From positions 186,001 through 250,000 of the forward strand of contig NZ_WQLV01000007.1 in NCBI RefSeq assembly GCF_009753675.1: a stretch of 64,000 bases of DNA, in the 5' to 3' direction. A model generated the notes under the pieces. That model ran no database searches. It saw nothing but the letters and a program-made list of their open reading frames with translations, and was not told the DNA's origin. The stretch's first letter is position 1. The number at the start of each line of letters is the position of its first letter. This stretch comes from Parasedimentitalea huanghaiensis (GTDB taxonomy: Bacteria; Pseudomonadota; Alphaproteobacteria; Rhodobacterales; Rhodobacteraceae). Shown here piece by piece: positions 550 through 57,343 of the stretch. A program made the translations under genes and the position numbers.

Positions 550-1701
550 ATGACCGAAGAATTCACTTCTTCCACTCACCCCCCACTCCCACCCACCACG
601 GAAGATATTCGTTATTCCTGGCTCCGTCTGTTGCGTTCTCGCAGGGTTGGTCCGGTGACATTTCACCGCCTGATCGCCGAGTATAATTCAGCGCAGAACG
701 CGCTGGATGCGTTGCCCGAAGTGGCGCGCGAAGCAGGCGTAAAGGGGTATAAAATATGCCCTTCACCTGTGATTGACGCCGAAATCAAGGCCGCAAAAGC
801 CGCCAAAGCGCGGCTTTTGTGCCTTGGCGACGTCCACTACCCTTCACAGCTTGCCCAGCTCAAAGATGCGCCGCCCCTCCTCTGGGTGAAAGGGGATACC
901 GCACGACTGCAATCTCCAATTATTGCTCTGGTCGGGGCGCGTAATGCCTCGTCACTGGGCAGCCGTATGGCCCGTGCACTGGCCCACGACCTTGGCTCGC
1001 AGGGGTACATAATAGTGTCAGGCTTGGCCCGCGGCATTGATACCGCCGCCCATCTGGCATCGCTGGACAGCGGCACAATCGCCGTCATGGCTGGCGGTGT
1101 TGACGTCATCTACCCCACACAGAACACCGGTTTGGCGCAGGATATAGCACAAAGGGGCCTGTTGTTGTCGGAACAGCCTATGGGACTCACCCCACAGGCG
1201 CGCCATTTCCCCAGCCGCAATCGCATCATTTCCGGCCTGGCCCGCGCCGTGATTGTCGTCGAAGCCGCTGCCAAATCCGGTAGCCTTATCACCGCCCGGG
1301 ATGCACTTGATCAGGGCCGCGAGGTGTTGGCGGTGCCTGGACATCCCTTCGATGCCCGCGCCAGCGGCTGCAACATGCTGATCCGCGACGGTGCCCAACT
1401 GGTTCGCAACAGTGACGATGTCATCGCTGCGCTCCCACCTGTTCAACCTCCGGCGCGGGCGTCCGCCCCACAACAGATGCTCCCCCTTGATAGGCCACCA
1501 CAACGGCGGAGCCTGCAGGAAACAGCAGCGCTGCACCAACAAATCCTGTCACGCCTTGGCCCCTCCCCCACGGCCGAGGACCAACTGATCCGAGACATGG
1601 CAGCACCAGCGCGTGACGTCTCACCTGCGCTGACCGATCTTGAACTGGACGGTAAGATCACCCGGCTCGCAGGCGGATTGGTGTCGCGTAAACTCCGTTA
1701 G
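550..1701 (+). CDS. dprA: DNA-processing protein DprA
   Basis: DprA/Smf loads RecA onto incoming single-stranded DNA during natural transformation (family knowledge). The 383-residue protein has an N-terminal helical region, then the Rossmann-like DprA core at about residues 85-290 with SGLARGID (157-164), FPSRNRI (220-226), SGSLITA and AVPG. A C-terminal winged-helix-like segment (about 320-383) is typical of proteobacterial DprA. The ATG has a GGAG six bases upstream. Its TAG stop overlaps by four bases the stop of the convergent gene on the other strand. Confidence 0.95.
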   Translation: MTEEFTSSTHPPLPPTTEDIRYSWLRLLRSRRVGPVTFHRLIAEYNSAQNALDALPEVAREAGVKGYKICPSPVIDAEIKAAKAAKARLLCLGDVHYPSQLAQLKDAPPLLWVKGDTARLQSPIIALVGARNASSLGSRMARALAHDLGSQGYIIVSGLARGIDTAAHLASLDSGTIAVMAGGVDVIYPTQNTGLAQDIAQRGLLLSEQPMGLTPQARHFPSRNRIISGLARAVIVVEAAAKSGSLITARDALDQGREVLAVPGHPFDARASGCNMLIRDGAQLVRNSDDVIAALPPVQPPARASAPQQMLPLDRPPQRRSLQETAALHQQILSRLGPSPTAEDQLIRDMAAPARDVSPALTDLELDGKITRLAGGLVSRKLR

Positions 1702-10421: not shown

Positions 10422-10637
10422 ATGATCAAATTCTTCAAAAACTTCCGCAAAGACGAAGCTGGCGCCGTGACTGTTGACTGGGTTGTTCTGACCGCTGCTG
10501 TTGCTGCTCTGGCTGGTGTTGTTTACACTTCCATCGCCGATGGCGCTGCCGACCTGACAGCAGGCACAGCAACCTACATCGGCACACATGACTCGTCAGA
10601 CCTCGCAACTGCTGGCTTCGGTACCACTACACCTTAA
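10422..10637 (+). CDS. Flp-type pilin, first copy
   Basis: A 71-residue type IVb prepilin, the subunit of the Tad pilus. It has a short basic leader ending in KDEAG, then AVTVDWVVLTAAVAALAGVV, a hydrophobic helix. By family rule the prepilin peptidase cuts after that Gly, leaving a mature protein of 57 residues. Position +5 is Asp and +6 Trp, where most Flp pilins have Glu-Tyr. The ATG follows GGAGGG. The mature C-terminus is Gly/Thr/Ala-rich. First gene of the locus, followed by a hairpin that may set its high expression against downstream genes. Confidence 0.9.
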   Translation: MIKFFKNFRKDEAGAVTVDWVVLTAAVAALAGVVYTSIADGAADLTAGTATYIGTHDSSDLATAGFGTTTP

Positions 10638-10665
10638 GCTGACGACGCTATAGCGATTTAAGCTC

Positions 10666-10698
10666 GGGGCCGCGTCTTTCATCCAAAGGCGCGGCCTC
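10666..10698 (+). terminator. Hairpin between the two pilin genes
   Basis: A 9-bp GC-rich stem (10666-10674 with 10690-10698, one wobble) lies 28 bases after the first pilin stop. No T-run follows, so it is more likely a 3'-stabilising or partial-termination hairpin than a full stop. Confidence 0.5.
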
Positions 10699-10734
10699 TT
10701 GCCCAGGGTAACCCCCGGCCCAACGAGGTTCGCA

Positions 10735-10911
10735 ATGAATAAACTAAAATCATTTCTTGCCAGCGATGATGGCGCAGTGACCGTCGACTGGGTTGTTCTA
10801 ACAGCTGGCATTGTAGGCCTGTGTTCAGTGATTGCATCCACCATATTTGATGGTGGGGTAGGACTGGCAAACGCAGTGGTAGCATACATGTCAAATTGGA
10901 ATCTTGGTTGA
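10735..10911 (+). CDS. Flp-type pilin, second copy
   Basis: A 58-residue prepilin with leader MNKLKSFLASDDG and mature start AVTVDWVVLTAGIVGL. It shares the exact AVTVDWVVLTA core with the first pilin but has a shorter tail, giving a 45-residue mature protein. Asp5-Trp6 is again present. GAGG lies eight bases before the ATG. It may be an alternative or minor pilin; a terminator follows at 10933. Confidence 0.88.
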   Translation: MNKLKSFLASDDGAVTVDWVVLTAGIVGLCSVIASTIFDGGVGLANAVVAYMSNWNLG

Positions 10912-49340: not shown

Positions 49341-49393
49341 TGCGTTAAAGGCTAGCGCAAACCTACGCCGCTGCGTTAAAGGTTAGCGCAAAC
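49341..49393. promoter_or_regulatory. Two direct repeats upstream of the transaldolase gene
   Basis: A 22-base unit occurs at 49341-49362 and 49372-49393, differing at one base, 31 bases apart. Each holds TGCGTTA and TAGCGCA as inverted half-sites. It lies between priA and tal. TTAGCG-type palindromes are targets of LacI-family carbon regulators in alphaproteobacteria (general knowledge), so this may be such an operator. Confidence 0.6.
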
Positions 49394-49423: not shown

Positions 49424-50077
49424 ATGAAATTCTTCGTAGATACCGCTGAAATCGACGCCATTGCCGAGCTGAATGAACTTGGCATGGTGGACGGTGTCAC
49501 CACCAACCCATCGCTGATCAAGAAATCCGGACGTGACATCATCGAAGTCACCAAGGAAATCTGTGATCTGGTAGACGGTCCTGTATCGGCCGAAGTCACC
49601 GCTGTTGACGCTGAGACCATGATCGCCGAAGGCCGCAAACTGGTGGAGATCGCTGAAAACATCGCCGTCAAAGTGCCGTTGACTTGGGATGGGTTGAAAG
49701 CCTGTAAAACCCTGACCGACGACGGTTACATGGTCAATGTCACCCTGTGCTTTTCGGCCAACCAGGCGCTGCTGGCGGCAAAAGCGGGCGCAAGCTTCAT
49801 CTCGCCTTTCATCGGTCGTCTGGATGACATCAACCTGGACGGAATGGAGCTGATCGAAGACATCCGCACCATCTATGACAACTACGGTTTTGAAACTGAA
49901 ATCCTGGCGGCCTCTATCCGCACTGTGAATCACGTGCTCGACTCTGCCCGTCTGGGTGCCGACGTGATCACTGCGCCTCCCGGCGTGATCAAATCGCTGA
50001 TCAACCACCCGCTGACCGACAAAGGCCTGGCGCAGTTCTTGGCTGACATCAAAGCGGCAGACATCAAGATCCTGTAA
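49424..50077 (+). CDS. tal: Transaldolase / fructose-6-phosphate aldolase family (TalC type)
   Basis: A 217-residue short transaldolase, a TIM barrel with the Schiff-base lysine in [13 protein letters not shown] (about K84). Family signatures [13 protein letters not shown] and [18 protein letters not shown] are present. It moves dihydroxyacetone units in the pentose phosphate pathway. The C-terminus reads [12 protein letters not shown], with a small internal duplication. Its last 21 bases recur at 51273-51293. AAGGA precedes the ATG. A terminator follows. Confidence 0.92.
50057..50077 (+). repeat. Direct repeat, left copy (end of tal)
   Basis: The last 21 bases of tal, encoding ADIKIL and the stop, are identical to 51273-51293. 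Confidence 0.85.
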
Positions 50078-50103
50078 ACGGTGCAGACATTTTGAGATTG
50101 AGA

Positions 50104-50132
50104 GGAGGTGCCTAGCGGTACCTCCCTTTTTT
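50104..50132 (+). terminator. Intrinsic terminator of tal
   Basis: A 9-bp stem GGAGGTGCC with GGTACCTCC (one G-T pair), loop TAGC, then C and TTTTTT. It has the same design as the terminator at 51319-51347. Confidence 0.9.
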
Positions 50133-50327
50133 GTTTCGAACGGGCTTCCCAGTTTTAAGTCACCCTAACAATTCGGCACTCCCGTCCCCAGACATTACGA
50201 CAAAAAGGTCGGAGAGGTTGAACAAATTGACTGGGAAAATGCGGTTGGATGCATGCCGCTTTATTCAGTAGCATTTTGGAAAAAAATCAGCCCTATTTCG
50301 TCTCAGTAAATCAGCCGTCGAGGGAAT

Positions 50328-50805
50328 ATGAACAGATTTATTGCGACGTTAGTTCAGGTAACCATCTTTTTTGTTGTTGTGCTTTTCCAGCAAAACTTCA
50401 GCCGCTGAGGATTTGTGCAGTACCGCGTGGTCTAACTATGTGGAAGAGGTTATCAGCATTCGAAACTCAGCGGATCACTATCGTGATGAGGTAATTCTGT
50501 TTTCGGACCCACGAGGCAGGTTGCATGATTGTTTAGGGTTCAAGGTCCCTAACGCAGATCTAAGAATTTTAGAACACGGTGTTGTACAAGCAGACATTTT
50601 AGATCGCGTAGTAGGTAAGCCGGAATTTGAAGCGGAAACCACATGCGGTTCGTTTGGTATGATGAATGAACTGTTTTCAAGAAGAGTGTATGTCTTGAGG
50701 TTTCCAAAAGACACACAAGTTTTGTTGGGACGTCAATGTGAGCAGTTCCGACAAGTAACATTGCCGCAATCACTGGCATTCTTCTTTAGCTTTGAACCTA
50801 GTTGA
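50328..50805 (+). pseudogene. Exported orphan protein gene broken by a frameshift
   Basis: ATG 50328, with GAGGG upstream, opens a signal peptide (MNRFIATLVQVTIFF) but stops at 50406. The adjacent frame continues from the same spot as LLLCFSSKTSAAEDLCSTAW and runs to 50805. Joining them with five instead of six T at 50367-50372 gives one protein of about 158 residues with a signal peptide and three or four cysteines. No family recognised. AT-rich compared with flanking genes. It may be a true mutation, a phase-variable tract or a sequencing error. Confidence 0.6.
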
Positions 50806-50832
50806 CCAATTTCGCAAAATTCCGAAATCTAA

Positions 50833-51140
50833 ATGATTAAATTTGTGGAGCTCCTCGACGATGGCTTTTCAAAACGCGGATCCCGAAAAATCGTCGTAAA
50901 TGACACTGCATTTGTGTGGTTCTGCGGGAGTATGAATTTGAAGGGAAAGACACTATTCGCTTACGGCTGGACGCAGAATCCTCTGGCCAATTGACCGTTG
51001 TGCATATGTGGTTTGGATTTCCGAAAATGTTGGAGGACAATCAGTCTCCGGGCAGATGGTGTTTGCCAGAAGACAAACAATGCATCGTCACCCCGTCGTT
51101 CGTTGCCGAAGCGATAAAGTACGCATTGGGCCTGGGCTGA
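50833..51140 (+). pseudogene. Small orphan protein gene broken by a two-base slip
   Basis: ATG 50833 starts MIKFVELLDDGFSKRGSRK and IVVNDTAFV, then stops early. In another frame VLREYEFEGKDTIRLRLD continues to 51140 with a smooth join at GTGTGG (50914-50919). Removing one TG unit restores a protein of about 101 residues. No family recognised. No good ribosome-binding site; it may have depended on the gene before it. Confidence 0.5.
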
Positions 51141-51245
51141 ACCCCAGAAACGAAAACAATTTTGTTTTGGTGAGACAGCAACAACCGACTGGGTTTGTAT
51201 TCATCTGACTGACGAATCTCACGCTATCAGGTTTCTCATTACAAG

Positions 51246-51293
51246 ACGGACTAAGGTCTGGAGACGTTCCTAGCAGACATCAAGATCCTGTAA
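51246..51293 (+). pseudogene. Remnant of a transaldolase 3' end
   Basis: Read in frame this stretch ends GLETFLADIKIL then TAA, against GLAQFLADI...KIL in tal. Upstream similarity continues weakly for about 25 bases, with a stop replacing the Lys codon. The last 21 bases (51273-51293) equal the end of tal. It is followed by a terminator like that of tal. Confidence 0.7.
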
Positions 51294-51318
51294 GGTCACT
51301 GACAACGACAAGATAAAG

Positions 51319-51347
51319 GGAGGCGCCAATGGGTGCCTCCTTTTTTT
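51319..51347 (+). terminator. Terminator after the tal remnant
   Basis: GGAGGCGCC with GGTGCCTCC, loop AATG, then seven T. Same nine-pair design and same wobble position as the tal terminator. Confidence 0.9.
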
Positions 51348-51420
51348 GTGAACGTTGCTGTGCAGGAGACGAAACATGCTGAGTACCAGCCAGTCATCCC
51401 AATCGGACCGACCCGTTCTA

Positions 51421-52023
51421 TTAAAAACCACTAGGGTTCGGGACCGGATCTAGCACAAGGAGCAAACGTGTTTCGCCTGTGCCCTGAATAGGCGGAGAGC
51501 GATGCATTAGACCGGATCGAGGCTGCTCAGGCCATTGAGTGCCTCGCAGAAGGATCGCAGCGCCGGTTGGCGCTGTGAAAATCCGCTTTGGATCAGCATT
51601 GCCTTGGCCGTTTCCGTATTGCGTCCCTGTCCCGCGGTAAGTGCAGATCAGCCGTGTGGTGACCGCATCAACATGAAACTTGCGACAGGCATTTGTTGTC
51701 ACAACATCAAGGCGCAAACGCAAATACCGCGAGGACACCAGACCTGAAAAGGTTTTGGCCAGCGCGGTAACATCTTCAATCAAAATAGTGCGGTTTTTGC
51801 AATCTGGTGTACCTCTGCTCTCGCAAATCTGAACAACAGCATCCCGCACCGACTCGATAGGTAAGACAATCCTTGCTTTGGGCAACTGCTCTGGTGCGAG
51901 GCCATCGATCCAAGACTGGATTGAAGCACGCAACGGTCTTCGCCAAATTACAGCAGCGCAATCAGGACGATGAATGACCGACAATCCCTCGGCATTCTCA
52001 ACCATGTCAACTCCGACTGGCAT
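51421..52023 (-). CDS. DUF1826 family protein
   Basis: A 200-residue protein matching by eye the DUF1826 family, which is often next to COG0523 GTPases in zinc-responsive operons. Conserved Arg/His/Cys segments include VIHRPDCAAVIWRRPL and KFHVDAVTTRLICTYRGTGTQ. The ATG at 52023 is chosen; a TTG at 52074 would overlap the upstream GTPase by 16 bases and is the alternative. It follows the GTPase on the same strand. Confidence 0.78.
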   Translation of the reverse strand: MPVGVDMVENAEGLSVIHRPDCAAVIWRRPLRASIQSWIDGLAPEQLPKARIVLPIESVRDAVVQICESRGTPDCKNRTILIEDVTALAKTFSGLVSSRYLRLRLDVVTTNACRKFHVDAVTTRLICTYRGTGTQYGNGQGNADPKRIFTAPTGAAILLRGTQWPEQPRSGLMHRSPPIQGTGETRLLLVLDPVPNPSGF

Positions 52024-52058
52024 AAGCCTTGTCACCTGAGGACTAAGCTGAGCGACCA

Positions 52059-53270
52059 CTACTGATGTCCCCAAGCTGGAAACGGATCCGGCAAGTCCAG
52101 CCAGTTATCGGGTTGAAAATTGGCCGTGTCGATCAATGCTGCGTTCAAGCGCTCACAGATTACTTCGCGGTCTAACCCTACGCCTATGAACACTAGCTCT
52201 TGGCGCCGATCCCCCCAAGGCTCGGCCCAGTTCCGCGCGATCTCGGCCTGAGCTTGCGGATGAGTTGGCAGTCGGTCTTCTGGCATGGTCGCCCACCAGC
52301 GTCCCAGTGGAGTGACGGAGGACAAAGCACCTGCAAGGCTGTACTCAGCAGCCCAATTTGGACGGGTTGCGATCCAGAAATGCCCTTTGGCACGGATCAC
52401 TCCGGGCAGTTCTCCGTTCAGCAGATCGTGAAGTCTTTGCGGATGAAAAGGCGCGCGCGCATGGTACACAAAAGAAGTGATGCCGTATTCTTCATCCTCT
52501 GGTGTGTGGTTTGCAAAGCCGTATAGCTCTTTGGCCCACATAGGGTGTTCATGCGCGGTGTCGAAGTCGAACAGACCGGTGTCAAGAATTGATCCTGCCG
52601 ACACGTCCGAGTGGTCTGTTTCAATGATCTTGGCGTCAGCATTCAAGCTGCGAATGATTTTTCGCGCGTTGTCGGACTTTTCTGGCCCTGCATCTGTAAC
52701 TTTGTTGAGAATAATAACGTCAGAAAATTCGATTTGTTCGGTCAACAGGCTAACCAGACTGCGGTCATCCCCTTCGCCCAGGCTTTCCCCACGATCAGTC
52801 AGGAAATCATGGCTGGAAAAATCCTTGAGCAGGTTCACTGCATCTACAACTGTCACCATGGTATCAAGACGGGCGACATCGGACAGGCTCTGCCCCTGTT
52901 CATCTCGAAAATCAAAGGTAGCAGCTACAGGAAGTGGCTCGGAAATTCCCGTAGATTCGATCAGAAGATAGTCAAACCGTCCCTCTTCTGACAGTTGACG
53001 CACTTCTTTCAGCAGGTCGTCGCGCAGCGTGCAGCAAATGCAGCCATTCGACATTTCGACCAATTTTTCTTCGGACCGCGATAGCTGCGTGCCTTCACGC
53101 ACCAGATCTGCATCAATATTCACTTCGGACATATCGTTGACGATAACGGCTACGCGGCGTCCATCGCGGTTGTTCAATACTCGGTTCAGAAGTGTTGTTT
53201 TACCGGCACCTAGAAAGCCGGACAAAATCGTCACGGGAAGGCGAGTATCTTCAGTAATGGTATCTTTCAC
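52059..53270 (-). CDS. COG0523 (CobW/ZigA-type) GTPase, probable zinc chaperone
   Basis: A 403-residue G3E GTPase. Walker A is GFLGAGKTT (18-26), the metal-binding CICC is at 77-80, and NKVTD is the guanine-specificity motif. The C-terminal CobW domain ends with WDLP-like NWLDLPDPF. Members under Zur control supply zinc when it is scarce (family knowledge). The start is GTG with GGAG six bases upstream. A Zur-like box lies 42 bases upstream. DUF1826 follows. Confidence 0.9.
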
Positions 53271-53311
53271 AGGTTTCTCCCGGGTGAATGTGGCGGACCG
53301 TCAAGACTCGT

Positions 53312-53328
53312 ATGTTATAACGTAACAT
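53312..53328. promoter_or_regulatory. Zur-type operator
   Basis: ATGTTA-TAACG-TAACAT, six-base inverted arms with a five-base spacer, 42 bases before the COG0523 GTPase start. It matches the alphaproteobacterial Zur box pattern (GTTATnnnATAAC-like). Binding is inferred. Confidence 0.65.
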
Positions 53329-53519
53329 TTCACAACCCATATTTTCCGAGGCCTGCTCTCACCGCAAAACAATAGAACCGGTCCTTGTCGCGCCTCTGAA
53401 CCGCCCCCAAAAGCACGTAGAGGCCTCTTTCCGGTCGAATGCGCCGCCTTTTGCCGATCTGGGGCTGTTTCAGCCTGCAGAATTTTTCATAACACCAGGC
53501 ATACGATCGGCAAATGACC

Positions 53520-54704
53520 TTAGCCGAGTTCTGAGGCCAGCGCCCCAAGGCCCTTTCCTATGCCGTCGGCGGCTTTGACCAGATTTTGCCCGCCCGCAGC
53601 AATCGTCGAAACTCCACCTGATAGACCAAGGCTGCCGATCCAGATCGCCCATTTGGCCCAAGTGGGATCTTTATGGCGTAATGCATCCACGGCCTTTTGA
53701 GTGCTGTCGCGAAATTTCTCGGCCGGTTTCAGTCTGGCATCAAAATCTTCGATGTCTTTGATAAGCTGTGACGTAGCTTTGCGCGCCTGCTCCATCGACT
53801 CAAACAGACCGTCGATCTTCTTGCTTTTGTATTTTCGATCTTTGACCATTTTACCAAGCTTTTTGTCGATTTCCTTGTCGAGTTTGCTTTGCTGATCGAG
53901 GATTTTGTTTAGCTCTTTGCCCAGCTTGGCGGCTTCCAGATCAAGGTTCTTGAGCTTGGCCTTGTAGGTTTCGAGATGTTTGTCGACCCGGTTAAACCCC
54001 GAGGTTTCAATCATCAGGAAGTCAGCCAGAAACTCTTTGCCGATTTCCTTGGCCTTCACCTTAGCCTTTGATTGCTTGGTATAAGCTGAAACAAGTTCCT
54101 TGATCGCCTTTTCAAGGTTCTGGTGAACCTTCTCCAGATCTGAGGTGACTTTCTGAATTGCCCTTGCCACAGAGACGACGCTTTGGGCGATGCCATAAAT
54201 ACTTGCCGCGATAGAGACCCCGCCTGTCACCGCACCTGCCGCAAGTGACGCGGTGCTGCCGATGGCACAGGCGCTGCCGATAACGATCGTGCTCACCACT
54301 TTAAGACGGTATTTTTTGCGGTCCTTGTTGGCCTGTTTCCACTTACTAAAGTGGGCATTGGCAACACCTTCGATCGACTTTTGGTACTTCGCGAAGATTT
54401 TGTTGATGTCAGCGTCGAACTCTTTGCATTCCTTGTCGGTCAGCGGCATGACCGAACCGAGGTTATCAGCGGCTTGCACACGCAGGCTGACTTCGCCCAG
54501 CAATTTTTTGTACTCTTTGGTTGCGTCATCATAGAGTTTGGCAACAAATCTGGCGTCGGTATCGAGCTCTTTGGCAACGCTGCTGTCAACTTCGCAGCTC
54601 GCCACAAAGGTCATTTTCCCCAGCTCGACGAATTTTGGTTTTACTATCTTGGCGACCTCGTTTTTGACGTCAGCCTTTATAATCGTTAGTTTTTCCTTGC
54701 CCAC
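53520..54704 (-). CDS. Helical protein with coiled coils and an internal hydrophobic segment, function unknown
   Basis: A 394-residue protein, Lys- and Glu-rich. Predicted mostly helical, with long charged heptad-like regions at about 50-135 and 185-345. In between, residues 136-183 form a Gly/Ala/Ser-rich hydrophobic stretch (STIVIGSACAIGSTASLAAG and on), and a second one is at 349-372. There is no signal peptide. The layout, a helical bundle with a buried hydrophobic hairpin, recalls alpha-helical pore-forming proteins of the ClyA/HBL/NheA kind, but no sequence motif proves it. A membrane-associated structural protein is the other option. GTG start with AGGAG eight bases upstream. Confidence 0.75.
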   Translation of the reverse strand: MGKEKLTIIKADVKNEVAKIVKPKFVELGKMTFVASCEVDSSVAKELDTDARFVAKLYDDATKEYKKLLGEVSLRVQAADNLGSVMPLTDKECKEFDADINKIFAKYQKSIEGVANAHFSKWKQANKDRKKYRLKVVSTIVIGSACAIGSTASLAAGAVTGGVSIAASIYGIAQSVVSVARAIQKVTSDLEKVHQNLEKAIKELVSAYTKQSKAKVKAKEIGKEFLADFLMIETSGFNRVDKHLETYKAKLKNLDLEAAKLGKELNKILDQQSKLDKEIDKKLGKMVKDRKYKSKKIDGLFESMEQARKATSQLIKDIEDFDARLKPAEKFRDSTQKAVDALRHKDPTWAKWAIWIGSLGLSGGVSTIAAGGQNLVKAADGIGKGLGALASELG

Positions 54705-55551: not shown

Positions 55552-55718
55552 AGACCCGGCGCTGGCTTTTGATACCCCCCGGATCAAATCAAACTTAGTC
55601 GCCATTTGAGAGCATGCCACGCCCCGCACTGCGCAAAAAACTGCCCCTTCATAAAAAATCCCCACTTTTCATTAAAACCCGTGTTATACCGTGCGCCAAA
55701 CCCAGCAGAGGTCAAAGA

Positions 55719-56426
55719 ATGAGCAGCAGTCCCGTCCTAGAAGAATCCCTACGCAAAGCAATTGTCGACAAGCCCGATGCGGTGCTTGAAGATCAAACCG
55801 TGATGAACGCGCTGGTTTCGGCCAATGAACGTTCCATGGGGGCCAATATCGTCGATCTTCGTGGCATTGCCATGGACCGGATGGAGGCACGTCTGGACCG
55901 TCTGGAAGACACTCATCGGTCAGTGATTGCAGCCGCTTATGACAATCTGGCGGGCACCAATCAAATTCACCGCGCTGTGCTGCGGCTGATGGATCCCACA
56001 AATTTTGAAGACTTCCTGCAAAACCTGCGGGGGGAATTGTCTGAGATCATGCGGCTTGATGCTATCACTCTGGTCCTGGAATCAGCCCAGAACGATCAGA
56101 CCAACGCCGTAGAGCGCATGGGTGAGGTTCTGAATATTGTCGAACCAGGCTTTATTGATGACTACATCAGCCAGGGTCGTGGCGGCATGGTCCGCCCTGT
56201 CACCCTGCGTCAGGTGCAGGGTGGGATGCCGCAGCTTTATGGCGACAAGGCTGACTGGGTCCGCTCAGAGGCCTGCCTGAAGCTGGACTTTGGTGACGGG
56301 CGTCTGCCCGGCCTGCTGGTTATGGGCGCCGAAGACCCACATCAATTCACCCCACAACATGGCACTGAACTGCTCACCTTTTTTGGCGGCGTGTTTGAGC
56401 GGTCGATGCGTCACTGGCTGTCGTGA
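55719..56426 (+). CDS. DUF484 family protein
   Basis: A 235-residue protein with a GAF-like fold, typical neighbour of xerC in proteobacteria. The N-terminal part has VLEDQTVMNALVSANERSMG and IVDLRGIAMDRMEARLDRLE; the C-terminal part is GAF-like. ATG 55719 has AGAGG upstream. The stop overlaps the GTG of xerC by four bases, so the two are translationally coupled. Confidence 0.88.
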   Translation: MSSSPVLEESLRKAIVDKPDAVLEDQTVMNALVSANERSMGANIVDLRGIAMDRMEARLDRLEDTHRSVIAAAYDNLAGTNQIHRAVLRLMDPTNFEDFLQNLRGELSEIMRLDAITLVLESAQNDQTNAVERMGEVLNIVEPGFIDDYISQGRGGMVRPVTLRQVQGGMPQLYGDKADWVRSEACLKLDFGDGRLPGLLVMGAEDPHQFTPQHGTELLTFFGGVFERSMRHWLS

Positions 56427-57343
56427 GCCTGATCTCGCCAGCTTGTCGTGATGCGTTGCAGAACTGGCTGGCCAGTAAAAAGGCGTTGAATGGTGCCGCA
56501 AACAATACCCTGACCGCGTATGCCGGTGACGTGAGCGAGTTTCTGTCGTTCATGACATTGCATTTTGGTACGCCTCAGGGGCTGGGCGCCCTACAGTCGA
56601 TCTCTACCGCCGACATGCGCGCCTGGATGGCCGAGACGCGCAACAGTGGCACTGGCGCCCGCTCGCTGGCCCGCAAACTGTCAGCCGTCAAAAGTTTCTA
56701 CCGCTGGCTGGCAGAACGTGAAGGGTTTGAACCCACTGCCGTCTTGATGGCCCGCACCCCCAAGTTTCAAAAGAAGCTACCGCGTCCGCTGGCCGCTGAT
56801 GCTGCCAAGGCCGTACTGGATACAGTTGAGCTACAATCAGGCTCAGACTGGGTTGCCGCCCGCGATGTGGCTGTGGTGACGTTGCTGTATGGCTGTGGAT
56901 TGCGGATTTCCGAGGCGCTGGGATTGCTTGGTAAAGACGCACCTATTGCAACGGTGCTGCGCGTCACCGGCAAAGGCGGCAAGGAACGCATCGTTCCCGT
57001 GATCGACACCGCCCGCACTGCGGTTGACCGTTACCTGACCCTGTGTCCGCACCCACATGAGGCGGATGGCCCGCTATTTCGTGGGGTACGCGGTGGCGCG
57101 CTGAACCCCCGCATTATTCAGGGAGTCATGGCCAAGACCCGCGCCCAATTGGGGCTCCCTGCCACGGCCACCCCACATGCCTTGCGCCACAGCTTTGCCA
57201 CCCATCTGCTGGAGGCCGGCGGCGACCTGCGATCTATCCAAGAATTGTTGGGACACGCCTCGCTGTCCACAACTCAGGCCTATACAGCCGTTGATAGCGC
57301 ACACCTGATGGACGTTTACAACCGCAGCCACCCCAAGGCCTGA
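56423..57343 (+). CDS. xerC: Tyrosine recombinase XerC
   Basis: Resolves chromosome dimers at dif with XerD. The 306-residue enzyme has the catalytic set R161 (GLRISEA), K184 (TGKGGKER), H252 and R255 (HALRHSFATH), H278 (LGHAS) and Y287 (TTQAYTAVD). GTG start. The DUF484-xerC overlap marks it as chromosomal XerC rather than a mobile-element integrase. Confidence 0.95.
   Translation: MSLISPACRDALQNWLASKKALNGAANNTLTAYAGDVSEFLSFMTLHFGTPQGLGALQSISTADMRAWMAETRNSGTGARSLARKLSAVKSFYRWLAEREGFEPTAVLMARTPKFQKKLPRPLAADAAKAVLDTVELQSGSDWVAARDVAVVTLLYGCGLRISEALGLLGKDAPIATVLRVTGKGGKERIVPVIDTARTAVDRYLTLCPHPHEADGPLFRGVRGGALNPRIIQGVMAKTRAQLGLPATATPHALRHSFATHLLEAGGDLRSIQELLGHASLSTTQAYTAVDSAHLMDVYNRSHPKA

Follow-up and report, generated by a model that had tools for sequence, protein, structure and literature searches.

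A displaced transaldolase gene end behind an intact tal gene: a probable recombination scar at a variable chromosomal slot

Why should the end of a housekeeping gene occur twice, 1.2 kb apart, when the gene itself is intact? The question is raised by tal in the window (the whole 64,000-nt stretch of DNA that was analysed), which lies on a 256-kb contig, C37, of a 4.86-Mb genome, G000. By tal, the closest named relatives are roseobacters, e.g., Phaeobacter and Leisingera. A sequence-only reading of the window had claimed that the last 21 bases of tal recur exactly at 51273-51293, and the repeat is indeed exact. The features of the locus are the following (window coordinates).

49424..50077, + strand: tal (transaldolase/fructose-6-phosphate aldolase, 217 aa; Pfam TAL_FSA, 1.8e-65), the intact anchor gene
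50057..50077, + strand: left 21-nt core, the last codons and stop of tal
50078..51244, no strand assigned: inserted segment, AT-rich (GC 42-48%)
50104..50125, + strand: left terminator (9-bp stem, 4-nt loop, T run), an allele of the tal terminator of the genus
50371..50805, + strand: 144-aa frame, open from a TTG start, of an uncharacterised family of small proteins
50833..51140, + strand: second small gene, an orphan split over two frames (50833-50994, 53 aa; 50916-51140, 74 aa)
51245..51293, + strand: decayed tal 3' tail, or relic (28 nt at 71%, a 15-nt deletion, then the exact core)
51273..51293, + strand: right copy of the 21-nt core
51319..51340, + strand: right terminator, orthologous to the terminator directly 3' of tal in the sister species G003
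51353..53506, - strand: second block, a DUF1826 gene and a cobW gene, without counterpart at this place in G003
53520..54704, - strand: gene for a 394-aa protein common to the window and G003 (Pfam matches below cut-off, mostly coiled-coil)
55614..56426, + strand: DUF484 gene, the conserved right border of the variable slot
56423..57343: tyrosine recombinase gene (Phage_integrase, 1.3e-33), outside the slot and 5 kb downstream

The two cores form a direct repeat with a spacing of 1,216; an exact 21-nt repeat is expected by chance about 1e-9 times in 6 kb and 2e-6 times in the genome. Six syntenic stretches from the genus, the window included (454,563 bp), hold two exact direct repeats of at least 20 nt that lie 60-6,000 bp apart: the tal-tail pair and a GC-simple 23-mer in genus member G006. 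When mismatches were allowed (blastn self-comparison at E 1e-4, repeats 300-6,000 bp apart, a search that missed the G002 scar described below), six direct repeats were found in 476,563 bp of eight genomes, and two of the six are tal tails, one in the window and one in G001. Of the eight genus genomes, G000 has two copies of an 18-nt tail pattern, five have one and two have none; the reversed control matched none of the eight. The in-frame similarity to tal that had been noticed upstream of the right core (GLETFLADI against GLAQFLADI) is real but short, covering 51245-51272 with 20 of 28 positions identical. A TAA stands in frame just upstream of GLETFLADI, and the 15 nt that the relic lacks are flanked in tal by two GACATCAA repeats. 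Upstream of 51245, alignment to tal did not rise above shuffles (p 0.34-0.46). When the tal end and terminator were aligned locally with the DNA behind them, the score was 71, compared with a mean of 26.5 and a maximum of 36 in 30 dinucleotide shuffles (z 15).

Each tail copy is followed by a terminator, and the observation that both have a nine-pair stem with the same wobble stands: both stems are 9 bp with a G.U at pair 7. The pairing was read from the sequence; both terminators fold, and a simple terminator scan catches the left one and misses the right one. Because similar stems follow tal in other genus members, the design is inherited. Both copies belong to the tal terminator family of the genus, with identities of 0.90 between the right copy and G003, 0.84-0.86 between the left copy and G003 and 0.83-0.85 between the left copy and G006. 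The left and right terminators are different alleles, an assignment that relies mainly on the spacer, since the left one also aligns with that of G003 at 0.84-0.86; no donor was found for the origin of either end. An Rfam match to sraL over the right terminator fell below threshold (20.2 bits against 39) and was discarded.

The segment between the tails is AT-rich, as had been stated, with a GC content of 42-48% compared with 51-57% in tal; that of the divergent neighbour priA is 60-67%. It had also been described as holding two broken orphan genes, which is true of the second gene, split over two frames, but not of the 144-aa frame, which is open from its TTG and may have a longer N-terminus in another frame. 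The family of the 144-aa protein is sparse, with weak matches in 4 of 393 other family genomes (E 5e-5 to 0.01). These relatives (L101-L104) are open frames with a signal-like start; they share four conserved cysteines, a tryptophan and a CL pair at 22-24% identity. The second gene has one marginal match (E 0.009), with stops inside. Neither gene found a useful match in Pfam, PHROGs or NCBIfam. As DNA, the segment matched nothing in 394 family genomes besides its own genome and a 33-nt terminator match, nothing in plasmids and nothing better than E 0.05 in the seven other genus genomes, all of which lack the cargo. No viral relatives of the cargo were found, and the genus, family, plasmid and viral sequences searched contained no donor for the insert.

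The locus without the insert can be seen in G003, a related genome with a single tal tail at the same place. Its tal is 98.3% identical to that of the window, and the last 96 nt of the gene are the same in both. The sequence-only reading had suggested looking for relatives in which tal is followed directly by the right-hand terminator, and G003 has this arrangement (80 nt at 91%, spacer and stem). There, tal and the right-type terminator are followed by 77 unmatched nt and then by DNA orthologous to the window from 53507 onward; because the G003 sequence resumes at that position, both 50078-51272 and 51353-53506 are absent at this place. The second of these, the DUF1826/cobW block, sits in the window between the old tal terminator and the 394-aa gene. 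A stretch related to it (76%) is found elsewhere in G003, and its cobW part has a further 69% match at G000:C8. Over the 64 kb of synteny between the window and G003, four slots of at least 250 bp differ, and the tal slot alone exceeds 1 kb. The opposite outcome, small genes that are ancestral and a right copy that is unrelated sequence, was not seen among the relatives compared.

Is the place behind tal variable more widely? We compared 88 loci, with a priA match in 85 and a measurable tal-DUF484 gap in 77. In the named set (80 loci, 70 measured, with the genus of the named loci not matched against that of the window), the gap is at most 306 bp in 58 of 70, below 500 bp in 63 and above 800 bp in 5. 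In the genus, it is 821-5,651 bp in all seven measurable members; G001 is not among them, as its contig ends 1,176 nt behind tal. Different inserts at the same site had been named as support for an insertion hotspot, and other species do differ in the genes that they carry at the tal-DUF484 slot. G002 has a frame of 227 aa, G004 one of 133 aa and G006 one of 86 aa; G005 has a ferric-reductase-like protein, and G001 has a frame of 174 aa together with a decayed tal tail of its own. The contents are mostly, not wholly, different, since the 394/401-aa gene is common to the window and G003, and G007 has a 309-nt stretch that is 68% like the NUDIX region of the window. Variable slots are common at this scale: comparing the window with each of four more distant members gave 8-13 slots of at least 250 bp per 64 kb. 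Thus, the place at tal is one among several, although in each of these comparisons no other slot is larger on the window's side.

Displaced ends of an anchor gene, lying beyond an insert and beside the intact gene, were found in three genomes: at tal in the window and G001, and at priA in G002. In G001 (L011), 72 nt of tal (-125 to -53 from the stop; z 16.6) recur 730 nt beyond the intact gene, past the 174-aa gene on the other strand, and are followed by an eroded terminator-like stretch. Both the cargo and the stretch of tal covered by the relic differ from those of the window. The contig end behind this relic may resemble the start of an insertion sequence. All 88 loci were scanned for 3 kb behind tal; apart from the 16 best-scoring loci, z was at most 2.3, and the window and G001 were the only two of the 88 in which a tal relic within the gap was counted. 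L021, which has a longer gap, was rescanned whole and gave no tal relic. L027, L049, L066 and L072 also gave matches (z 4.4-6.2), but these fall past the DUF484 start, out of the slot, and were left out of the count.

On the priA side of tal, the G002 locus (L012) has a priA-tal gap of 1,703 nt. In the seven other members of the genus this gap measures 79-110 nt, and its median over 85 loci is 80 nt. The insert (L012 10771-12365) contains a short-chain dehydrogenase gene and a MerR regulator gene, and on its tal side lies a decayed 126-nt repeat of the 5' end and leader of priA. This alignment scores 71, whereas shuffles average 24.5 and reach 34 at most (z 15.9). In the corresponding scan at priA, which measured 85 of the 88 loci and left gaps below 150 nt unscored, only G002 stood out among eight scored. 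This scar, at the 5' end of priA, is the mirror image of those behind tal.

We consider it probable that the window holds a gene-end displacement scar, produced by recombination at a variable slot between tal and DUF484. Incoming DNA, with cargo genes as well as a tal 3' end and a tal-type terminator of its own, would have joined the chromosome at the 3' end of tal. The gene would thereby keep an intact end and gain a new terminator, and the old tail and old terminator would come to lie 1.2 kb downstream, where the tail, no longer under selection, would decay. The join may have relied on homologous recombination within the gene at one edge and on short-homology or illegitimate joining at the opposite edge (homology-facilitated illegitimate recombination); alternatively, a single crossover with a circle may have made it. 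Termination behind tal should be normal as before, and transcription of the plus-strand cargo would stop at the old terminator. Such displacement accounts for the duplication of the end with its flank, for terminators of different alleles, for a gene that is intact, for cargo that changes and for an insert free of integrase. We count in its favor that the right terminator and spacer are orthologous to those of G003, where the segment is absent, as well as the scars in G001 and G002, the longer gaps in the genus and the lack of a site-specific recombinase among the gap genes scanned. A gene transfer agent or transformation could have brought in the DNA. That linear DNA is imported is plausible in this genus because all eight genomes hold matches to GTA_TIM (in two pieces in G003) and DprA, and this machinery may have acted at tal; DprA is also above cut-off in 10 of 14 control genomes, so its presence in the genus says little.

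The sequence-only reading had left the choice between a small element that entered at the 3' end and an allele tail captured by recombination. The latter fits better, given the lack of an integrase in the insert and the other gap genes scanned, the lack of the tail pattern in the viral contigs, the differing relic stretches and the mirror scar in G002, and the former is less supported. A small integrative element, or its remnant, that used the tal 3' end as its attachment site with the 21-nt repeat as att core, restored the end and terminator of the gene and then lost its integrase or relied on one in trans is, in our judgment, unlikely. It would account for the exact direct repeats at both ends, the restored gene and the displaced native terminator, and the segment joined end to end would hold exactly one tal tail and one terminator. 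A tyrosine recombinase gene does lie 5 kb downstream, but its position behind DUF484, presumably that of xerC, is conserved in the genus members aligned (G001 excepted), and it is therefore not part of the insert. Between the tails there is no integrase, as had been claimed: the frames of the segment have no integrase domain, no site-specific recombinase was found among the gap genes scanned at the tal-DUF484 slot, and among the gap frames scanned only L021 has an rve-type transposase. The exact tail pattern had no match in viral contigs, a search that would miss divergent sites, and the segment had no plasmid match. An att core would also fit less well with tal-like sequence that continues upstream of the core and with a G001 relic that spans another stretch of tal, both relics being decayed. 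Scars at gene borders on both sides of tal would not be explained by a single attachment site at its 3' end. The literature searched yielded no paper that joins transaldolase with integrase, integration site and attachment site. We regard as highly improbable a cassette system of this genus in which small circles without an integrase, each combining cargo with a housekeeping gene end and its flank, enter repeatedly at the borders of tal; if it existed, the gene end itself would be the docking site.

A different matter is when the displacement took place. Upstream of the core, 8 of 28 relic positions are changed, which has a probability of 5e-5 at 5% divergence and 0.005 at 10%; the relic is thus too diverged for a displacement after the split from G003, and either the donor brought an already decayed tail or an older insertion was lost by G003. 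It is possible, if doubtful, that the insertion predates the split of the two species and that a deletion between the 21-nt repeats restored the single tail of G003, an event that would leave exactly the present G003 tal and right terminator; the timing would change and the entry route would be the same. In favor of this, the decayed relic and split reading frames imply long residence, the last 96 nt of tal are the same in both species, and deletion between repeats shorter than 30 bp is documented as giving rise to such variation (PMC2884548). However, an extra event is needed, and the window's cargo is found in none of the other seven genus genomes. Although the relic is short, chance resemblance, misassembly or plain tandem duplication can be almost entirely dismissed: chance is opposed by the z of 15 and the expectation of about 1e-9, a 21-nt repeat in a 256-kb contig would hardly mislead an assembly, and the right terminator is orthologous to that of G003. 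All three are contradicted by G003 and by G001.

Gene-end displacement by recombination, the reading that we prefer, has published counterparts, and the layout at tal is the outcome of the models for Rhs and Vibrio cholerae type VI secretion (T6SS) genes. For Rhs C-terminal tips, Jackson et al. 2009 (PMC2935791) presented a model with a circular intermediate and a single crossover. There, as here, a conserved gene body receives a new end with the DNA that follows, and its former end moves downstream as a detached fragment; Rhs tips differ in sequence, whereas at tal the same protein end is kept in a housekeeping enzyme and the terminator and cargo change. For V. cholerae T6SS effector modules, sequential displacement by homology-facilitated illegitimate recombination was proposed (Kirchberger et al. 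2017, PMC5361080). These modules likewise have a homologous anchor on one side, a non-homologous join on the other and displaced 3' ends that remain, but the anchor here is tal, and none of its cargo was recognised as effector-immunity genes. The small variable segments of PMC2884548, with direct repeats flanking 10-18% of them, resemble the insert in having repeats of less than 30 bp at their edges; those repeats are described there as general, whereas here they are a gene tail with its terminator. The integrative elements reported in dusA (PMC4482086) also use a site at one end of a conserved protein-coding gene, but they bear an integrase and sit at the 5' end of dusA, and the tal insert has no integrase. 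The literature searched described no system closer than these four. In it, gene-end displacement is described for Rhs and T6SS genes; at tal and priA it would have affected housekeeping genes, which remain intact.

Within a single genus, three scars surround one housekeeping gene; the protein is unchanged, and the terminator or leader is replaced. They suggest that foreign genes may find neutral entry points at the borders of conserved genes. They also offer a signature for genome-wide searching, namely a second gene end that has decayed, together with its flank.

Some further elements of the window were recorded. Between the divergent priA and tal genes, 49341-49393 contains two tandem 22-nt copies (95% alike), TGCGTTAAAGG(C/T)TAGCGCAAAC, with inverted half-sites, which look like a candidate operator pair of a regulator; tal of G002 is also preceded by a similar pair. 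The dprA gene is at the start of the same window (550-1701; DprA domain at G000:C37:186796-187407), and a direct repeat of 44 nt (84%, 310 nt apart) is present at 10454-10807.
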